A stretch of DNA of 43,930 nucleotides, taken from positions 1-43,930 of the forward strand of contig SHUI01000005.1 of the NCBI GenBank assembly GCA_009697455.1, given 5' to 3'. The notes beneath the pieces are model-generated. The model saw nothing but the letters and a program-made list of their open reading frames with translations, was not told the origin of the DNA and ran no database searches. The translations under genes were made by a program, and so were the position numbers. Source of the DNA: Bryobacterales bacterium (GTDB taxonomy: Bacteria; Acidobacteriota; Terriglobia; Bryobacterales; Bryobacteraceae). Below, piece after piece: positions 2 through 21,283 of the stretch. The stretch's first letter is position 1, and every line of letters begins with the position of its first letter.

Positions 2-2779
2 CTGTACAAGCTGGGGGGCAAGGCCGATGCAGCCATGATGCGGTTTGAGACTGCCTCGAAGCTCGACCCGAACCTCGCCGGACCGCATTTCCAGCTCTAC
101 AATGCATACCGGAGTGCGAACCGCCCCACGGACGCCGCACGCGAACTGAAGGAATTCCAGGAGATCAAAAAACGTCAGGCGGGCGCCGCGATTCCGGAAG
201 ATTTGGAATGGAGCTTCTTCGCCGAGGTCTATGAAACGCTCGATCCGGCGAATTCGAAGGAAGACTCCGCGGCGGGTCCGGAGTTGAAGTGGAGTGAGAA
301 GAAGCTTGCCGAGGGTCTCGACGCGAAGACCGCGGGCGTGACGGTTCTTGACGCCGATGGCGACGGGCGTCCTGATGCAGCCGTGTGGTCCGCGAACGGT
401 ATTCAGGTGTTCAAGGGCGGCTCAGTGAAGATGGAGAACGCGGCGCTCGCTGCCGTCAAGGACGTTATTTCCGTGACCGCGGGGGACTTCAACAACGATG
501 GCCTTGCCGATCTGACCGTGCTGTCGAAAACCGGTGTCACGCTGTTTGCCAATCAGAAAGGCGTGTTTCAGAAGAACGTGGCTCAGCCTCCGGCGGGTGT
601 TTACGCCAATGCGGTCTGGATCGACTACGATCACGACTACGACCTGGACCTTTTTCTGCTCGGTGCGAAATGCGCGCTTGTCCGCAACAACGGCGCGGCC
701 GGCTTCAGCGATCGGACCGCGGACTTCCCATTCGCGAAAGGCAACGCGACCGCCGGAGTTCTTTTCGAGCTGATCGCAGACACGAATGGCTCGGATCTGG
801 TGGTTGCGTACGAAGATCGCATGGCGGTTCTTTATCGAGACAAACTCGCGGGCAAGTTTGAAGCCATGCCGCTCGACGCGATCCCCGCCGGCACGATATC
901 GCTCGCGGCTCAGGACGTCGATAACGACGGATGGATGGATGTCGTGGCTGGCTCGCCCTCAGGCGTGACGCTGGCGTTCAATCGCGAGGGCAAGCTCTCG
1001 GCAGGAGCCCCGCCCGCGAACGCACGTGGCCCAGTGACTTTTGTGGATTTGGAAAATCGTGGAATTGCCGATCTGGTGTCGTCGAACGGTGTATCGCGAA
1101 ATCTGGGCGCCGGGGCGTTTACCGCGGCCAAAGCGCTGAGGCAGGCAGGATCGGGGTTCGCGGCGGCGGATTTCGACACTGATGGCCGCGCCGATCTGCT
1201 GATGGCTGGGGCCGATGGTTCCGCGTCGCTGCTGCGCAACGAGACCGAGACGAAGAACGGATGGATCAGGATCGCGCTCACCGGGGTAAAGAACGTAAAG
1301 CTTGCCCCAGGTGCGGAAGTTGAAGTCAAAGCCGGAGCACGCTATCAAAAGAAGATTTACGAGGGCATTCCCCTGGTATTCGGCCTCAGGGGGCATAAAG
1401 AAGCCGACACGGTCCGTATCACGTGGCCGAACGGGTTGATCCAGAACGAGCCGAAACAGGCGGCGGGAAAAGCTTTCGCCTACAAGGAAGCGCAGCGTCT
1501 GTCGGGTTCGTGCCCCATGATATTCACGTGGAACGGCAAGGAGTTTGAGTTCATCACGGATGTTCTAGGCGTCGCGCCACTCGGCGCGAGTTCGGGCGAT
1601 GGCAAGTATTTTCCGGTCGATCATGACGAATACGTTCAGATTCCCGGAGAATCGCTCAAGCTTGAAAACGGCAGGTACGAGATTCGTATCACGGAAGAGT
1701 TGCGCGAGGTTTCCTATCTCGACCAGATCAAGCTGATAGCCGTGGATCATCGGGCGGACACCGAGATTTACACGAACGACAAGTTCAAGTCGCCTCCGTT
1801 TCCGGACTTCCGGCTTTACGGAGTTCAGAAGCGGGTCTATCCCACGGCCGCGCGGGATCATAACGGTGTGGACGTGCGGGCGCGGCTTTCGAAACGCGAC
1901 CGTGTCTATCCGGACGGATTCAAGCGGGACTATTCCGGCGTGGCCGAGTCGCACCATGTCGACCTGGATTTCAAGGGTCACGCGGCTGGCGGCAAGGCCG
2001 TGCTGATCCTAAACGGCTGGGTCGATTGGGCCGATGGGAGCACGTTCCTGGGTGCGTCGCAGGAAAGCAAAGACGGGCTGGTGTTCCCGTACCTGCAGGT
2101 GAAGGATCAGGCTGGCCGCTGGCAAACGGTCATTTCCGACATGGGAATTCCGGCCGGTAAGCCGAAGACGATCGCGGTCGACCTTACCGGAAAATTTCTT
2201 TCGGATTCGCGGGAGGTGCGGATCGTGACCAACCTCTGCGTCTACTGGGATGAGATTTTCTTGAGCGAAGAGACAGGGACGCCTCAGACCCGGATAACCC
2301 CCCTCGTGGCAGGGACGGCAGATCTACGCTTCCGAGGTTTTTCGAAGCCCGTGATACATCCCGAGCGGAAACAGCCCGAGGCCTTCGTTTACGCGAATTG
2401 GATGGCCGGTTCGATGTGGAACCCCACGCCTGGAAACTATACCCGTTACGGCGACGTGGCGGAGTTGCTGAACCTGGTGGACGACCGGATGGTGCTGATG
2501 GGATCGGGAGACGAATTGCGTCTGTCCTACTCCGCGGACGGGTTGCCCGCGGTGAGCAATGGCTGGAAGAGGGACTTTCTGCTCTATGTCGATGGATGGG
2601 CGAAGGACGGTGATGCGAACACGGCGTATTCTCAAACCGTGGAACCGCTCCCATTTCACGGCATGGCCGGGTATCCATACACAGGGGGCGAGCGCTTTCC
2701 GCAGGCAGGTTATCAGAAGGAGTTCAACACGAGGCCCGCGCTGCGGCTAGTGCGTCCGCTCGCGGAGCGCAGGAAATGA
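2..2779 (+). CDS. TPR / FG-GAP (VCBS) / UnbV-like protein, 5' truncated by the window edge
   Basis: The frame is open from base 2, so the true start lies outside the window; the first ATG (35) falls inside a TPR helix pair and is not the start. Visible order: one TPR-like unit (about 2-190), then at least five Ca-binding FG-GAP/VCBS loops of the form DxDxDGxxD (near 350, 490, 630, 915 and 1170), then an ASPIC/UnbV-like segment (about 1260-1470, with an ITWPNG motif). The last 430 or so residues form a conserved-looking domain beginning SCPMIFTWNG that I cannot name. The family is known for secreted or surface proteins with a beta-propeller that binds calcium and probably ligands. It lies upstream of the multiheme cytochrome in the same orientation (214-base gap), so a joint role at the cell surface is inferred. 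The enzymatic activity, if any, is unknown. Confidence 0.85.
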   Translation: MYKLGGKADAAMMRFETASKLDPNLAGPHFQLYNAYRSANRPTDAARELKEFQEIKKRQAGAAIPEDLEWSFFAEVYETLDPANSKEDSAAGPELKWSEKKLAEGLDAKTAGVTVLDADGDGRPDAAVWSANGIQVFKGGSVKMENAALAAVKDVISVTAGDFNNDGLADLTVLSKTGVTLFANQKGVFQKNVAQPPAGVYANAVWIDYDHDYDLDLFLLGAKCALVRNNGAAGFSDRTADFPFAKGNATAGVLFELIADTNGSDLVVAYEDRMAVLYRDKLAGKFEAMPLDAIPAGTISLAAQDVDNDGWMDVVAGSPSGVTLAFNREGKLSAGAPPANARGPVTFVDLENRGIADLVSSNGVSRNLGAGAFTAAKALRQAGSGFAAADFDTDGRADLLMAGADGSASLLRNETETKNGWIRIALTGVKNVKLAPGAEVEVKAGARYQKKIYEGIPLVFGLRGHKEADTVRITWPNGLIQNEPKQAAGKAFAYKEAQRLSGSCPMIFTWNGKEFEFITDVLGVAPLGASSGDGKYFPVDHDEYVQIPGESLKLENGRYEIRITEELREVSYLDQIKLIAVDHRADTEIYTNDKFKSPPFPDFRLYGVQKRVYPTAARDHNGVDVRARLSKRDRVYPDGFKRDYSGVAESHHVDLDFKGHAAGGKAVLILNGWVDWADGSTFLGASQESKDGLVFPYLQVKDQAGRWQTVISDMGIPAGKPKTIAVDLTGKFLSDSREVRIVTNLCVYWDEIFLSEETGTPQTRITPLVAGTADLRFRGFSKPVIHPERKQPEAFVYANWMAGSMWNPTPGNYTRYGDVAELLNLVDDRMVLMGSGDELRLSYSADGLPAVSNGWKRDFLLYVDGWAKDGDANTAYSQTVEPLPFHGMAGYPYTGGERFPQAGYQKEFNTRPALRLVRPLAERRK

Positions 2780-15868: not shown

Positions 15869-16473
15869 GTAGAGGGGTTCTTAGCGCCGAGGAGCAACGT
15901 GAGGTACTGGACGGCGCGGTGAAGTTGATTTCCACGCAGGAACTTTCCGCGATCACCCTTGAAGGGCTCAGCAAGGCCTGCGGCGTTCCGGCGTTTGATA
16001 TCGTTCGTCAATACCATTCGAAGGAAAACATCCTCCAGGCCGTGCTCGAGCGTGAACTGGAATTGATCGCCGGCGCCGTGGCTTCCCCGGAGCTTCGTTT
16101 TCCGGGTGAAACGCTTAAAGACGAAATCGAAGTTCTGGCCAAGGTCATGTTGGGCGAGTATCGCAGCCGGCTGAAGTTCATGGGTAAGATGCTCTCGGAA
16201 GCGATGAGGAACCCCGAGATCGGCGCGCTTTTCTACAAGACGTTTATCGAGCAGGGCCGTCTGCTTTTTACCGAGTTTCTCAACACCCGTAAGGCCCTGG
16301 GAGAACTTCGTGAGGACGCGGATGTGGAAGCGGCAGCAGCCATGTTTCTTTCCGCGCTCACGTTTATCCTGCTTGTTGTAGAATTGTTTGGCGGTAACAA
16401 GGTCGAGGCGCTTGATGACGAGCGTCTTGTGCGCGAAATGACAGACGTCTTCTTGAGAGGGGTCAGATCATGA
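15865..16473 (+). CDS. TetR/AcrR family regulator
   Basis: A 202-residue protein with an N-terminal helix-turn-helix (about 15-62, ITLEGLSKACGV followed by a helix with QYHSKENIL) and a variable all-helical ligand domain. It is embedded in the operon, overlapping both neighbours by four bases, rather than divergently placed. It probably controls this operon in response to an acyl or pathway intermediate, by analogy with FadR/FabR-type TetR proteins. No clear palindromic operator was found upstream of 7599. Confidence 0.85.
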   Translation: MSRGVLSAEEQREVLDGAVKLISTQELSAITLEGLSKACGVPAFDIVRQYHSKENILQAVLERELELIAGAVASPELRFPGETLKDEIEVLAKVMLGEYRSRLKFMGKMLSEAMRNPEIGALFYKTFIEQGRLLFTEFLNTRKALGELREDADVEAAAAMFLSALTFILLVVELFGGNKVEALDDERLVREMTDVFLRGVRS

Positions 16474-18065
16474 AGGTTGCGGTCCTCGGCTCCAACGGCG
16501 TGCTGGCACGCCAGACGCAGGAGGAACTGAAGGCCCGCGGTCATGTTCTTGACAGCTCCACGCCGGACTCCGTCATTTATATTCCGGGGGACCTCGAAGG
16601 GCTCTCCGCAGTCCTAAGCCGTGGGGGTTTTTCGCGGCTGGTTCTCCGGAGCCACGCCTACGCCTATGGATCGAATACCAAGAACCCGGGTCTGATGACG
16701 GAAGAACGCGTGTCGCTGCTTCCGCCGGGTGCGCCGGAGCAGCGCTGGCTTCGCGCGGAGGAACTGGCGTCGAAGTTCCTAAATTCCGCCGTGGTGCGCC
16801 TTACGAATGTGCTCGCCCCGGAAGAGGGTGATTTGCTCGTGCGGCAACTTGCGCGCGGCGCAGCCATGCCGCTGGCCGGACACGATCCTAACGTTCAGTT
16901 TCTGTCGCTCAAGGATGCGGCAAGGGCGCTGGCGGTGGCTGCGGAGTCTTCCGCGACCGGCATTTTTAATGCCGCAGGTGAAGGAACCATCCCGCTTAAG
17001 AAGGCCTTCCGCGCAGCCGGCACGACCCGCGTAGCGATGCTCCAACCCCTTCAATCGTCCATTCGATCAGCGGCTGTGAGCCTCGGAGCCGCGAAGTTCA
17101 GGGGAGGCAGCCTCGATCAGCTTCAATACAACTGGACCGTCTCGGGAGAACGCGCCGCCCGAGAGCTTGGTTACACGCCCTCGCAAACAACCATCGAGGC
17201 GCTTACCGAGTTCGTCCGCACCAAGCCGGGCGCGCGCCCCGAACTTCTTGCGAAGCCCTTCGACGAATATGGCCTCGACGTGGATTACATCAAGGCTTGG
17301 GGCTGGTGGTTCGCGTTTCTACGCAACATCTACTGGCGCATCGACCATGAGGGGCTGGAGAACGTTCCGAAGTCGGGACGAGCGGTGTATGTCTCGAATC
17401 ATCGCGGCTTCATGCCGCTCGACGCCGTAATGCACCTGTCGCTGCTCTTCACGCACCGCCAGCGCATCGTCCGGTTCCTGATTATTACGTCCCTTCTGCG
17501 AATTCCTTTCTTGTGCAATTTCCTCACGAAGCTGGGGGGCGTAATCGCGAGCCAGGAAAACGCCGCGCGACTCTTCGGCCGTGAGGAACTCGTGGGAATC
17601 TTTCCTGAAGGCATTCGCGGATCGTTCACGCCCTACAAGCGCACGTATCAACTTCGCGACTTCGCGAAGAGTGCGTTTGCGAAAATCGCCATCGAGAATC
17701 AGTCGCCCGTGGTCCCGAGCGCCGTGATCGGACACTCCGAGATCTTCCCGATCATCGGCCGCATCGACTCGGGATTTATCGTGAAGGAATTCGGCTGGCC
17801 CTATTTCCCGATCGCTCCGATGTTTCCGCTAGCTCCGATTCCGATTCCATCGAAGTGGCATGTGCGCGTCCTGCCCGCGGTTCCGTTCGAAGGACTGAAA
17901 CCCGCGGATGCGGAGAATGTGCAGATCGTACGCGATTTCGCGCGCCACGTACAGAAAATCGTCCAGACGAACCTTGACGACATGGTTCCAAAACGCAAAA
18001 GCATATTCTGGGGAAAAGTGTTGGACGGCACATGTCCCCCTGTGCCGGCGTTCGTGCGGCGGTAG
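16470..18065 (+). CDS. SDR (epimerase-like) - PlsC acyltransferase fusion
   Basis: A 531-residue two-domain protein. Residues 1 to about 255 resemble an atypical NAD-dependent epimerase (VLGSNGVLARQ, RLTNVL, FNAAGEG) but lack an obvious YxxxK, so redox activity is uncertain. Residues about 270-510 form a PlsC/LPLAT acyltransferase with NHRGFMPLD (His311 and Asp318, the longer H-x6-D variant) and FPEG at 378-381. The acyltransferase would pass an acyl group from ACP or CoA to a lipid or alcohol acceptor. It is last in the ten-gene run and overlaps the TetR stop. The fusion suggests coupling of substrate binding or keto reduction with esterification. Confidence 0.85.
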   Translation: MKVAVLGSNGVLARQTQEELKARGHVLDSSTPDSVIYIPGDLEGLSAVLSRGGFSRLVLRSHAYAYGSNTKNPGLMTEERVSLLPPGAPEQRWLRAEELASKFLNSAVVRLTNVLAPEEGDLLVRQLARGAAMPLAGHDPNVQFLSLKDAARALAVAAESSATGIFNAAGEGTIPLKKAFRAAGTTRVAMLQPLQSSIRSAAVSLGAAKFRGGSLDQLQYNWTVSGERAARELGYTPSQTTIEALTEFVRTKPGARPELLAKPFDEYGLDVDYIKAWGWWFAFLRNIYWRIDHEGLENVPKSGRAVYVSNHRGFMPLDAVMHLSLLFTHRQRIVRFLIITSLLRIPFLCNFLTKLGGVIASQENAARLFGREELVGIFPEGIRGSFTPYKRTYQLRDFAKSAFAKIAIENQSPVVPSAVIGHSEIFPIIGRIDSGFIVKEFGWPYFPIAPMFPLAPIPIPSKWHVRVLPAVPFEGLKPADAENVQIVRDFARHVQKIVQTNLDDMVPKRKSIFWGKVLDGTCPPVPAFVRR

Positions 18066-18118
18066 GAAGACAGAGTCAGAATGGCTGCGCCGTGGTCTCG
18101 TTGCGACCGCCGGATGAA

Positions 18119-18300
18119 GGGGGCCCAAAAAAAAGGCCCCGCCGCGGGCTCTGCAGCGCCGTTGTTGCGCGGGGCCTAGACACATCACAGGAGAAGTAAC
18201 ACCCACCAAAGACAATCTTGGCATTCCTGAGCAAGTGCCCTTTGTTGAGCACGCAAGGGGCCACCGCGTAAACTCAATAGAACCAACCGGACGTTTTCGC
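18119..18300 (-). ncRNA. Candidate minus-strand small RNA
   Basis: A T8-tailed terminator on the minus strand (18127-18177) has no minus-strand gene feeding it nearby. Upstream on the same strand is a second hairpin (TTGAG/CTCAA at 18245-18249 and 18273-18277, with ACGC/GCGT inside). Between them is a CTTCTCCT stretch complementary to a Shine-Dalgarno site. No credible protein is encoded. The 5' end is a guess and the RNA is inferred, not observed. Confidence 0.35.
18127..18177 (-). terminator. Rho-independent terminator, minus strand
   Basis: A perfect 9-bp stem (AGGCCCCGC at 18134-18142 with GCGGGGCCT at 18169-18177), read on the minus strand, is followed directly by eight Ts (complement of the A-run 18127-18134). 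The 26-base loop can pair internally. On the plus strand a small GGGGCC/GGCCCC hairpin (18120-18140) exists but has no T-run. Confidence 0.7.
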
Positions 18301-18352
18301 GCCTACCATTTCACGTAGCACAACTCGTGCGGCCGCTACGGAAATCTGAAGT

Positions 18353-18389
18353 AACAAGTGTATATTCATGGCGTTACATGACGCTTGTT
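18353..18389. promoter_or_regulatory. Imperfect inverted repeat upstream of the cyclophilin gene
   Basis: AACAAGTGT (18353-18361) and ACGCTTGTT (18381-18389) are complementary at 8 of 9 positions and end 23 bases before the ATG. The site could be an operator; a TATATT lies inside it but lacks a convincing -35. The rest of the 347-base gap is covered by the terminator and small-RNA entries. Confidence 0.3.
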
Positions 18390-18412
18390 CGGGTTAAGAT
18401 GAAGACACCGCT

Positions 18413-19795
18413 ATGAGAACTCGTTTGGTTGCCGTGGTCTGGCTCGTCCTTTTTCTCGCGCCGCGCGCGCTCGAATGTCAGAGCGCCACCGCGCCAACGG
18501 TCCGTTTTCGCACGGTCCTTGGCGATATCGATGTTACGTTGCTTCCGGGTTCCGCGCCCCGGACTGTAGCAAATTTCCTCAATTACATGAACCGCGGCGC
18601 GTTTAACAATTCGATCATCCATCGGTCCGTGCCCGGTTTCATTTTCCAGGGCGGAGGTTTTCAATATCTCAACCAAACGGCGTCTGAAATCCGCGCCGAT
18701 CCGCCCGTGCGCAACGAATATGCCGTCTCGAATACGCGCGGCACAATCGCCATGGCAAAGCTTGGAACCAGTGCCGATAGCGCCACCAGCCAGTGGTTCT
18801 TCAATTTGTCTAACAACAATGCTTCGAATCTCAACAATCAAAATGGCGGGTTTACGGTTTTCGGACGTGTCGCAAACGCCGCCGGTCTCACGGTGATGGA
18901 CCGGATCGCCACCGTTCCCATACCCAACCCTCCGATTTTCGCCTCGCCGTTCGATGCCATGCCGCTGATCAACTACACCCGAGGGGCACCCGTGGGCGAG
19001 CAGAACCTGGTGATGGTCCTCACGGTCACGCAACTAGATCCCGCTCCGGCGATAAAGGCGAACGGGATTGTCTCGGCCAGCAGTTTCGGGGCATTCGCGG
19101 CCGCCGCGCCGGGTTCTTACATCGAGATTTACGGTACGGATCTCGCGGGCACCACACGGGAATGGGCCGGAACCGACTTCACGGACGGCGACGCGCCCAC
19201 ATTGCTTGACGGTGTCAGCGTCACAGTCGGCGGGCAACCGGCGTTCGTCAATTTTGTGAGCCCGGGCCAGGTGAACGTTGAGATCCCCGCTGGCGTCCCG
19301 GCCGGTACCGCACCTGTTGTCGTCAGCTACAAGGGCCAGACCAGCGCTTCCGCTTCGTTCACGATCAAGCTGCTTGCCGGCGGACTGCTCGCTCCGCCTT
19401 CCTTCAATGTGAACGGCAAGCAGTACGTACTCGCGATTCACGCCGCTAGCGGCGCCTTCGTGAGCAATGGAAATATTCCAGATGTGCCTGCGGCACCTGC
19501 CGCTCCCGGCGAAACGCTGATCCTCTATGGACTGGGCTTCGGTCCCGTGAGCCCCGCCGGCACTCCAATTGCGGGCAAGATCGCTCAAGGCCTGACGTCG
19601 CTAACGGCGGACGTGCAGTTCAGGATCGGACAATCGGCCGCGAAGGTTGAATACGCGGGTCTCGCTCCGAATCTGGTTGGACTTTATCAGTTCAACGCTG
19701 TGGTTCCGCCGAACGCGGCGAGCGGCGATCTGCCCCTGGAAGTTGTCCTGGCAGGGGAGGCCGTACCGCAGACGCTGTTCATCCCGGTGAAGTAA
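18413..19795 (+). CDS. Secreted cyclophilin-type PPIase fused to a Solibacter C-terminal (TIGR03437-like) domain
   Basis: A 460-residue exported protein. A signal peptide (1 to about 24) is followed by a cyclophilin domain (about 28-208) with IIHRSVPGFIFQGGGF (the Arg of the active site is present), AMAKLG and SQWFF blocks. Residues about 217-460 form an Ig-like double repeat (SPGQVNVEIP, LYGLGFGPVSP) matching the lineage-restricted domain known as TIGR03437. It would catalyse prolyl isomerisation outside the cytoplasm, with the C-terminal domain perhaps anchoring or binding surface structures. The last 17 bases overlap the convergent GtrA gene. The domain is a strong lineage marker for Solibacter-like acidobacteria. 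Confidence 0.88.
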   Translation: MRTRLVAVVWLVLFLAPRALECQSATAPTVRFRTVLGDIDVTLLPGSAPRTVANFLNYMNRGAFNNSIIHRSVPGFIFQGGGFQYLNQTASEIRADPPVRNEYAVSNTRGTIAMAKLGTSADSATSQWFFNLSNNNASNLNNQNGGFTVFGRVANAAGLTVMDRIATVPIPNPPIFASPFDAMPLINYTRGAPVGEQNLVMVLTVTQLDPAPAIKANGIVSASSFGAFAAAAPGSYIEIYGTDLAGTTREWAGTDFTDGDAPTLLDGVSVTVGGQPAFVNFVSPGQVNVEIPAGVPAGTAPVVVSYKGQTSASASFTIKLLAGGLLAPPSFNVNGKQYVLAIHAASGAFVSNGNIPDVPAAPAAPGETLILYGLGFGPVSPAGTPIAGKIAQGLTSLTADVQFRIGQSAAKVEYAGLAPNLVGLYQFNAVVPPNAASGDLPLEVVLAGEAVPQTLFIPVK

Positions 19796-21207: not shown

Positions 21208-21283
21208 GCGGGAGTAGCTCAGCTGGTAGAGTGCGACCTTGCCAAGGTCGATGTCGCGGGTTCGAATCCCGTCTCCCGCTCCA
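21208..21283 (+). tRNA. tRNA-Gly (GCC anticodon)
   Basis: A 76-base cloverleaf. The acceptor GCGGGAG (21208-21214) pairs with CTCCCGC (21273-21279), the discriminator is T, and an encoded CCA lies at 21281-21283. The D-arm reads AGCTCAGCTGGTAGAG, and the anticodon arm CGACC-TTGCCAA-GGTCG has GCC at 21241-21243. The T-arm is GCGGG-TTCGAAT-CCCGT. It decodes GGC, a common codon in this GC-rich DNA. Confidence 0.97.

Follow-up and report, generated by a model that had tools for sequence, protein, structure and literature searches.

A candidate small RNA ending at an intrinsic terminator between the acyltransferase and cyclophilin genes of a Bryobacterales bacterium

What might a strong intrinsic terminator serve when it stands on a strand where no gene leads directly into it? 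The question is raised by positions 18119-18300 of a 43,930-nt stretch of DNA from an uncultured soil bacterium (the whole stretch being the window), in which such a terminator faces the minus strand between two plus-strand genes. A previous reading of the letters alone (the sequence-only reading) had placed the next minus-strand gene about 1.6 kb away behind an opposing gene, and this holds: the nearest minus-strand gene upstream of the terminator is GtrA, which ends at 19779, and the plus-strand cyclophilin-type gene (18413-19795) lies between. The same reading had proposed a probable small RNA, a proposal now backed by conservation, synteny, the terminator and the absence of a conserved reading frame. 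As we see it, the interval separating the acyltransferase gene from the cyclophilin gene probably encodes, on its minus strand, a free-standing, base-pairing small regulatory RNA (sRNA) that is likely to be assisted by Hfq, and the locus is very probably a real, selected and genus-restricted sRNA candidate. The features on which this reading is built are the following:

16470-18065, plus strand: acyltransferase gene (Pfam PF01553), convergent with the RNA and syntenic in the genus.
18413-19795, plus strand: cyclophilin/TIG-domain gene (Pfam PF00160 and PF01833), divergent from the RNA and syntenic in the genus.
18127-18176, minus strand: intrinsic terminator, with an 8-bp GC stem, a 26-nt loop containing a nested hairpin, and then T8.
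18128-18284, minus strand: candidate small RNA as modelled, 157 nt, drawn from conservation and a covariance model, with a provisional 5' end.

On the minus strand the terminator stem consists of GGCCCCGC (18176-18169) paired with GCGGGGCC (18142-18135), and the T-run that follows it (18134-18127) corresponds to the sole A-run of at least seven on the plus strand of the window. Because terminator and T-run both face the minus strand, transcription is taken to proceed in that direction. Combinations of terminator grade, defined as a perfect 8-bp stem with at least seven GC, a loop of up to about 40 nt and then at least seven T, arose once per 300 dinucleotide shuffles of the window with both strands counted, and the one at 18176-18127 is the only stem and T-run of such strength in the window. 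The strong minus-strand terminator of the sequence-only reading is thus upheld by the presence of stem and T-run and by their rarity in shuffles; there are either 8 bp with eight T or, if the first T is paired with A, 9 bp with seven T. A simple scanner called a different stem at this site, its loop limit being 8 as against the 26-nt loop found here. When compared with shuffles, the fold energy is ordinary for such GC-rich sequence (z of -0.33 for the 68-nt terminator region and of +0.49 for 182 nt). Among the species of the genus, the tail reads T8 in the window's own genome (G000), T7 in one sister genome (G002) and TTTATT in the other (G001), whose terminator is weaker, the innermost stem pair being lost as well. 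The opening of the terminator loop, GCGCAACAACGGC (18158-18170, minus strand), is invariant, and it contains two AAC triplets that, we presume, could suit Hfq.

The locus is conserved well beyond its terminator. A DNA search of 61 genomes (the window's own and 60 relatives) returned 41 with a match at E ≤ 1, of which three are convincing and all belong to the genus: the window itself, G002 (88% over 347 nt) and G001 (78% over query positions 64-306), the next best match having an E-value of 0.013. In the three genus genomes listed by the searches the locus is syntenic, with the same flanking genes in both sisters; the cyclophilin gene of G002, near a contig end, is partial. Between G000 and G001, 88 of 97 aligned positions (91%) are identical over the stretch that begins with GCTCAGGAATG and closes with the terminator stem, as compared with 56% of the fourfold-degenerate sites in both flanking genes (273 sites in the acyltransferase gene and 231 in the cyclophilin gene), and with a rate of 0.56 at least 88 identities in 97 would arise with a binomial probability of 7e-14. 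The corresponding comparison of G000 with G002 gives 91/98 (93%) against 78% and 76% at fourfold sites (292 and 156 sites). When identity to G001 is counted in steps of 20 nt, the block 18240-18121 gives values of 15 to 20, and the steps around it score 7/20 (18120-18101), 11/20 (18260-18241) and 15/20 (18280-18261); farther 5' the values are 10/20 (18300-18281), 16/20 (18320-18301), 8/20 (18340-18321) and, in a second conserved block, 19/20 (18360-18341). These figures point to conserved non-coding sequence under selection at this locus. The 5' half is thus a mosaic, in which conservation marks no clear start for the RNA.

Read 5' to 3' on the minus strand, positions 18119-18300 present a CCAAAG/CTTTGG-type hairpin, then GGTGGGTGTTACTTCTCCTGTGATGTGTC, then the terminator. 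A second hairpin and an anti-Shine-Dalgarno-like sequence had been noticed just upstream of the terminator, and both are present, at 18221-18206 and 18196-18189, respectively. The elements inside the candidate RNA are:

18206-18221, minus strand: second hairpin, CCAAAG/CTTTGG type, its stem kept in two of three species and imperfect in the window, its loop variable in length.
18179-18207, minus strand: near-invariant segment GGTGGGTGTTACTTCTCCTGTGATGTGTC, which holds the anti-Shine-Dalgarno-like CTTCTCCT at 18189-18196.
18178-18240, minus strand: predicted enclosing stems, GGGCAC (18240-18235) with GTGTCT (18183-18178) and CAGGA (18229-18225) with TCCTG (18192-18188), from RNAalifold and pair counts.

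Thirty-four contiguous columns, corresponding to 18180-18213 of the window and including the anti-Shine-Dalgarno piece, are invariant in the three species, and the segment CTTTGG..GTGTC is identical between G000 and G001 at 32 of its 33 positions (97%). An exact match to the first 27 bases of the GGTGGGTGTTACTTCTCCTGTGATGTGTC segment is present in two other records of the collection of genomes searched, from which the window's own genome may be missing. The RNAalifold consensus has an energy of -49.1 kcal/mol on the minus strand versus -42.3 on the plus strand, and 83 of 87 cells are paired on the minus strand versus 78 on the plus strand, in a structure that was itself drawn on the minus strand. 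In the enclosing stems all changes are one-sided, and the outer stem has one broken cell. Across the tested structure as a whole, none of the pairs changed on both sides, and the shuffle control was flat, in an alignment of three sequences only. The idea of CTTCTCCT as a generic anti-Shine-Dalgarno sequence does not fare well, since in the predicted fold the piece is partly paired rather than simply exposed, the overlapping UCCUG joining with the invariant CAGGA that lies upstream of it, and long complements are absent elsewhere. When the three genomes were searched for the 18-nt complement of the anti-Shine-Dalgarno part with up to three mismatches, only the locus itself in each and one further 3-mismatch site were retrieved, compared with 10 sites for the reversed-pattern control; used as a target finder, this 18-mer gave no candidate.

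The interval first put forward for the RNA, 18119-18300, was adequate; conserved sequence continues to about 18284 and is followed by a separate block:

18340-18371, strand not assigned: second conserved block, with GAAGTAACAAGTGTATATTC (plus orientation) at 18348-18367.

This block comprises 24 contiguous invariant positions (18348-18371). Its 20-mer GAAGTAACAAGTGTATATTC occurs once in each of the three genomes, where no further copies with up to three mismatches were found, and by eye it is a partial dyad, GAAnnnACAnnTGTnnnTTC. The block may be a promoter or operator serving either the RNA or the divergent cyclophilin gene, or it may be the 5' part of the RNA; no sigma-70-like site was found near the locus on either strand. 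A direct repeat, TGTTACTTC (minus strand), was seen by eye to be common to the second block and the invariant segment of the RNA, and a long-range pairing between the two conserved blocks is possible. GGTTCTATTGAGTTTACG was considered as a recurrent promoter and set aside as unconvincing, with six sites in the three genomes versus one for the reversed control and three of the six being the locus itself.

The candidate RNA would be transcribed from the minus strand, would measure approximately 155-230 nt and would end at the intrinsic terminator 18176-18127; its U-tail would probably be engaged by Hfq, and its invariant segment CUUUGGUGGGUGUUACUUCUCCUGUGAUGUGU would base-pair with a target. We infer its transcription, its 5' end, its Hfq binding and its base-pairing mechanism. 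The base-pairing interpretation draws on an intrinsic terminator combined with a U-tail and a single near-invariant segment, and a base-pairing regulator appears likeliest given that the window's own genome carries an Hfq gene (90.3 bits; cut-off 27). The locus offers a sequence-supported sRNA candidate in an uncultured genus, in which one segment is constant enough that its partner should be findable. For comparison, a table in a 2022 review gives four distinct annotated sRNAs for the Acidobacteria (PMC9029176).

The distribution of the RNA was examined with a covariance model, R1, built from the three genus sequences. Under stricter filters, which lose weak matches, R1 gave matches at E ≤ 1 in 24 of 237 family genomes and at E ≤ 0.05 in eight of 257 order genomes, the latter set overlapping the former and adding little. 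Credible matches were confined to the three genus genomes (182-196 bits), the other listed ones reaching at most 22.2 bits; the next best (E of 0.0045 and 0.0084) were taken as chance, as they match mainly via the 5' piece TTCTATTGAGTT. No copy of the RNA was found in eight loci of more distant acyltransferases, with about 1.5 kb taken on each side. A spread across the Acidobacteria, over which the sequence-only reading had suggested a covariance search, is not supported by R1, according to which the RNA is restricted to the genus among the genomes searched.

One weak R1 match, at a locus designated L053 (E of 0.051, chance level if taken alone), sits in an element that is conserved throughout another genus (23 of 23 genomes). 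The other strand of this element has a near-constant AAGCCGGGGAGGnAACTCCCACCAAAGCGAGACTAACCTC..AAGACCCCTGAAGC inside a GC stem; the same strand also displays, by eye, a promoter-like TTGCAA-17-TATTAT. A second model, R2, built from the L053 element, matches 214 of the 237 family genomes at E ≤ 0.1, among them G001 and G002, where the matches lie at loci other than that of the window. The copies named here are:

L126 (G001), 1141-1258: R2 element, genus copy.
L127 (G002), 1510-1626, minus strand: R2 element, genus copy.
L053, 1580-1691, minus strand: R2 element from which the model was built.

In 14 of the 16 loci read (all but L119 and L125) a frame starts on the same strand about 100-420 nt downstream of the element, and from its motif LGSTGSIG we take it to be the start of 1-deoxyxylulose-5-phosphate reductoisomerase (dxr). 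Most genomes of the family carry this RNA element, which usually lies upstream of dxr where the locus was read, and the four loci compared with Rfam gave no match near a curated cut-off: L053 had no match in Rfam at E ≤ 10, the element in L126 and L127 matched mir-583 only (19.7 and 19.8 bits versus a cut-off of 80), and L128 had none. The R2 element may be a new leader of riboswitch-like type. Downstream of it, in G001 and G002, lies a GGGTCTTAG that by eye could pair with (T)AAGACCC in a switch-like manner, and G125 has three neighbouring copies of the element.

It is possible, if rather doubtful, that the window RNA is an antisense regulator or a sponge of this family-wide RNA usually found upstream of dxr, its CUUUGGUGGGUGUUACUUCUCC pairing with GGGGAGGUAACUCCCACCAAAG of the latter. 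This pairing, though only suggestive, is the best lead to a target. The two sequences can form 19 Watson-Crick and two G-U pairs over 22 positions (21 pairs), with both L126 and L127; both pairing sites are nearly invariant, and where the family is variable at one position, both genus copies have T, in keeping with the pairing. Of the 50 dxr RNA copies read, some of them from overlapping loci, nine contain GTAA or GGTAA. When 20000 random 157-nt stretches were sampled, with overlap, from a 213-kb pool, no stretch reached the score of the window RNA against the dxr RNA (maximum 22.1 versus 23.1; Gumbel estimate 2.6e-5), nor did 0.8 Mb strand-bases of G001 offer a site as good (maximum 22.9 for the whole RNA, and nothing of at least 19 with the 22-nt core alone). 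However, the test is post hoc, the dxr RNA having been discovered via this very similarity, and the best random stretch (22.1) and the best other G001 site (22.9) leave a narrow margin below 23.1. Furthermore, the profile of the dxr RNA scores the window locus in the three species at E of only 0.017-0.055 per 60 kb, while 23 other loci (73 kb) yield an equally good profile match (E of 0.021), and R2 detected no dxr RNA in G000, a genome that is 74% complete. Whole-RNA duplex energies were unexceptional, 22, 42 and 161 of 1000 shuffles being as good, a test that is indecisive in GC-rich sequence. The further step, by which a genus-specific sRNA would control isoprenoid synthesis through a near-invariant, family-wide element before dxr, or would act as a sponge for that element, we consider unlikely and put forward only tentatively; if true, it would be a case of an sRNA targeting the conserved part of a cis-regulatory leader.

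The likeness to the dxr RNA also admits a quite improbable reading in the opposite orientation, in which the conserved block would form part of a plus-strand transcript as the cyclophilin gene's 5' leader, a sequence perhaps related to the dxr leader motif but diverged from it. The plus strand has GGAGAAGTAACACCCACCAAAG, identical to the genus dxr RNA at 19 of 22 positions in the sense direction, a CCTGAGC farther on that by eye resembles CCCTGAAGC of the dxr RNA, and the start of the cyclophilin gene some 200 nt downstream of the block; but the terminator and T-run are oriented to the minus strand, wobble-type changes weakly favour that strand too, the block is not preceded by a sigma-70-like site, and R2 run with filters off has no match at the window locus at E ≤ 10. 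Decidedly improbable, too, is a terminator that acts alone, keeping antisense read-through, such as that from GtrA, out of the acyltransferase gene with no separate RNA involved. The convergent layout with the acyltransferase gene would make a terminator useful there, yet this account leaves unexplained the invariance before the terminator, where identity to G001 is 20/20 over 18181-18200 versus 16/20 over 18141-18160. Least of all do we expect a short protein, which is highly improbable, because the frame containing SLVGVTSPVMCLGPAQQR, although all three species keep it open on the minus strand, enters the terminator hairpin with amino-acid changes, hairpin-loop indels of 2-3 nt shift the reading frames between species, frames run into the terminator, and the three species show no common start accompanied by a ribosome-binding site.

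The free-standing minus-strand sRNA that we favour recalls several known RNAs in its general make-up. With relaxed thresholds, Rfam gave three weak matches over 17900-18500 (15.7-19.5 bits, far below the cut-offs), the best of which, asX2, is on the plus strand. The mmgR/suhB sRNA (RF00519), a weak match, likewise has a pyrimidine-rich stretch before a GC terminator and U-run, but homology is unsupported, the locus scoring 15.7 bits against a gathering score of 41. In the Betaproteobacteria toxic small RNA (RF02278) a CU-rich region is similarly followed by a strong terminator, whereas the score of the locus is 16.3 bits against a gathering score of 50. Structured RNA candidates of Acidobacteria or Solibacter named in PMC2864571 include Acido-1 and Acido-Lenti-1, given there with Rfam numbers, and Solibacter-1, given there without one; the first two differ from the present RNA in that, at gathering score, Rfam matches nothing in the window save a tRNA, and Solibacter-1 falls outside that comparison. 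Literature searches brought up no paper that, judged from its title and abstract opening, describes this RNA or the dxr element. The 6S RNA (RF00013) is a conserved non-coding RNA of similar size class, and identity with it is not supported, there being no 6S match at the window locus. A 6S-like match does occur elsewhere in the genus, on contig C39 of G001 (45.3 bits versus a cut-off of 46.4), with none in G000 or G002. At gathering score, Rfam returned one tRNA and nothing else over the whole window, and a tRNA gene is located on the plus strand at 21208-21280 (68.5 bits).
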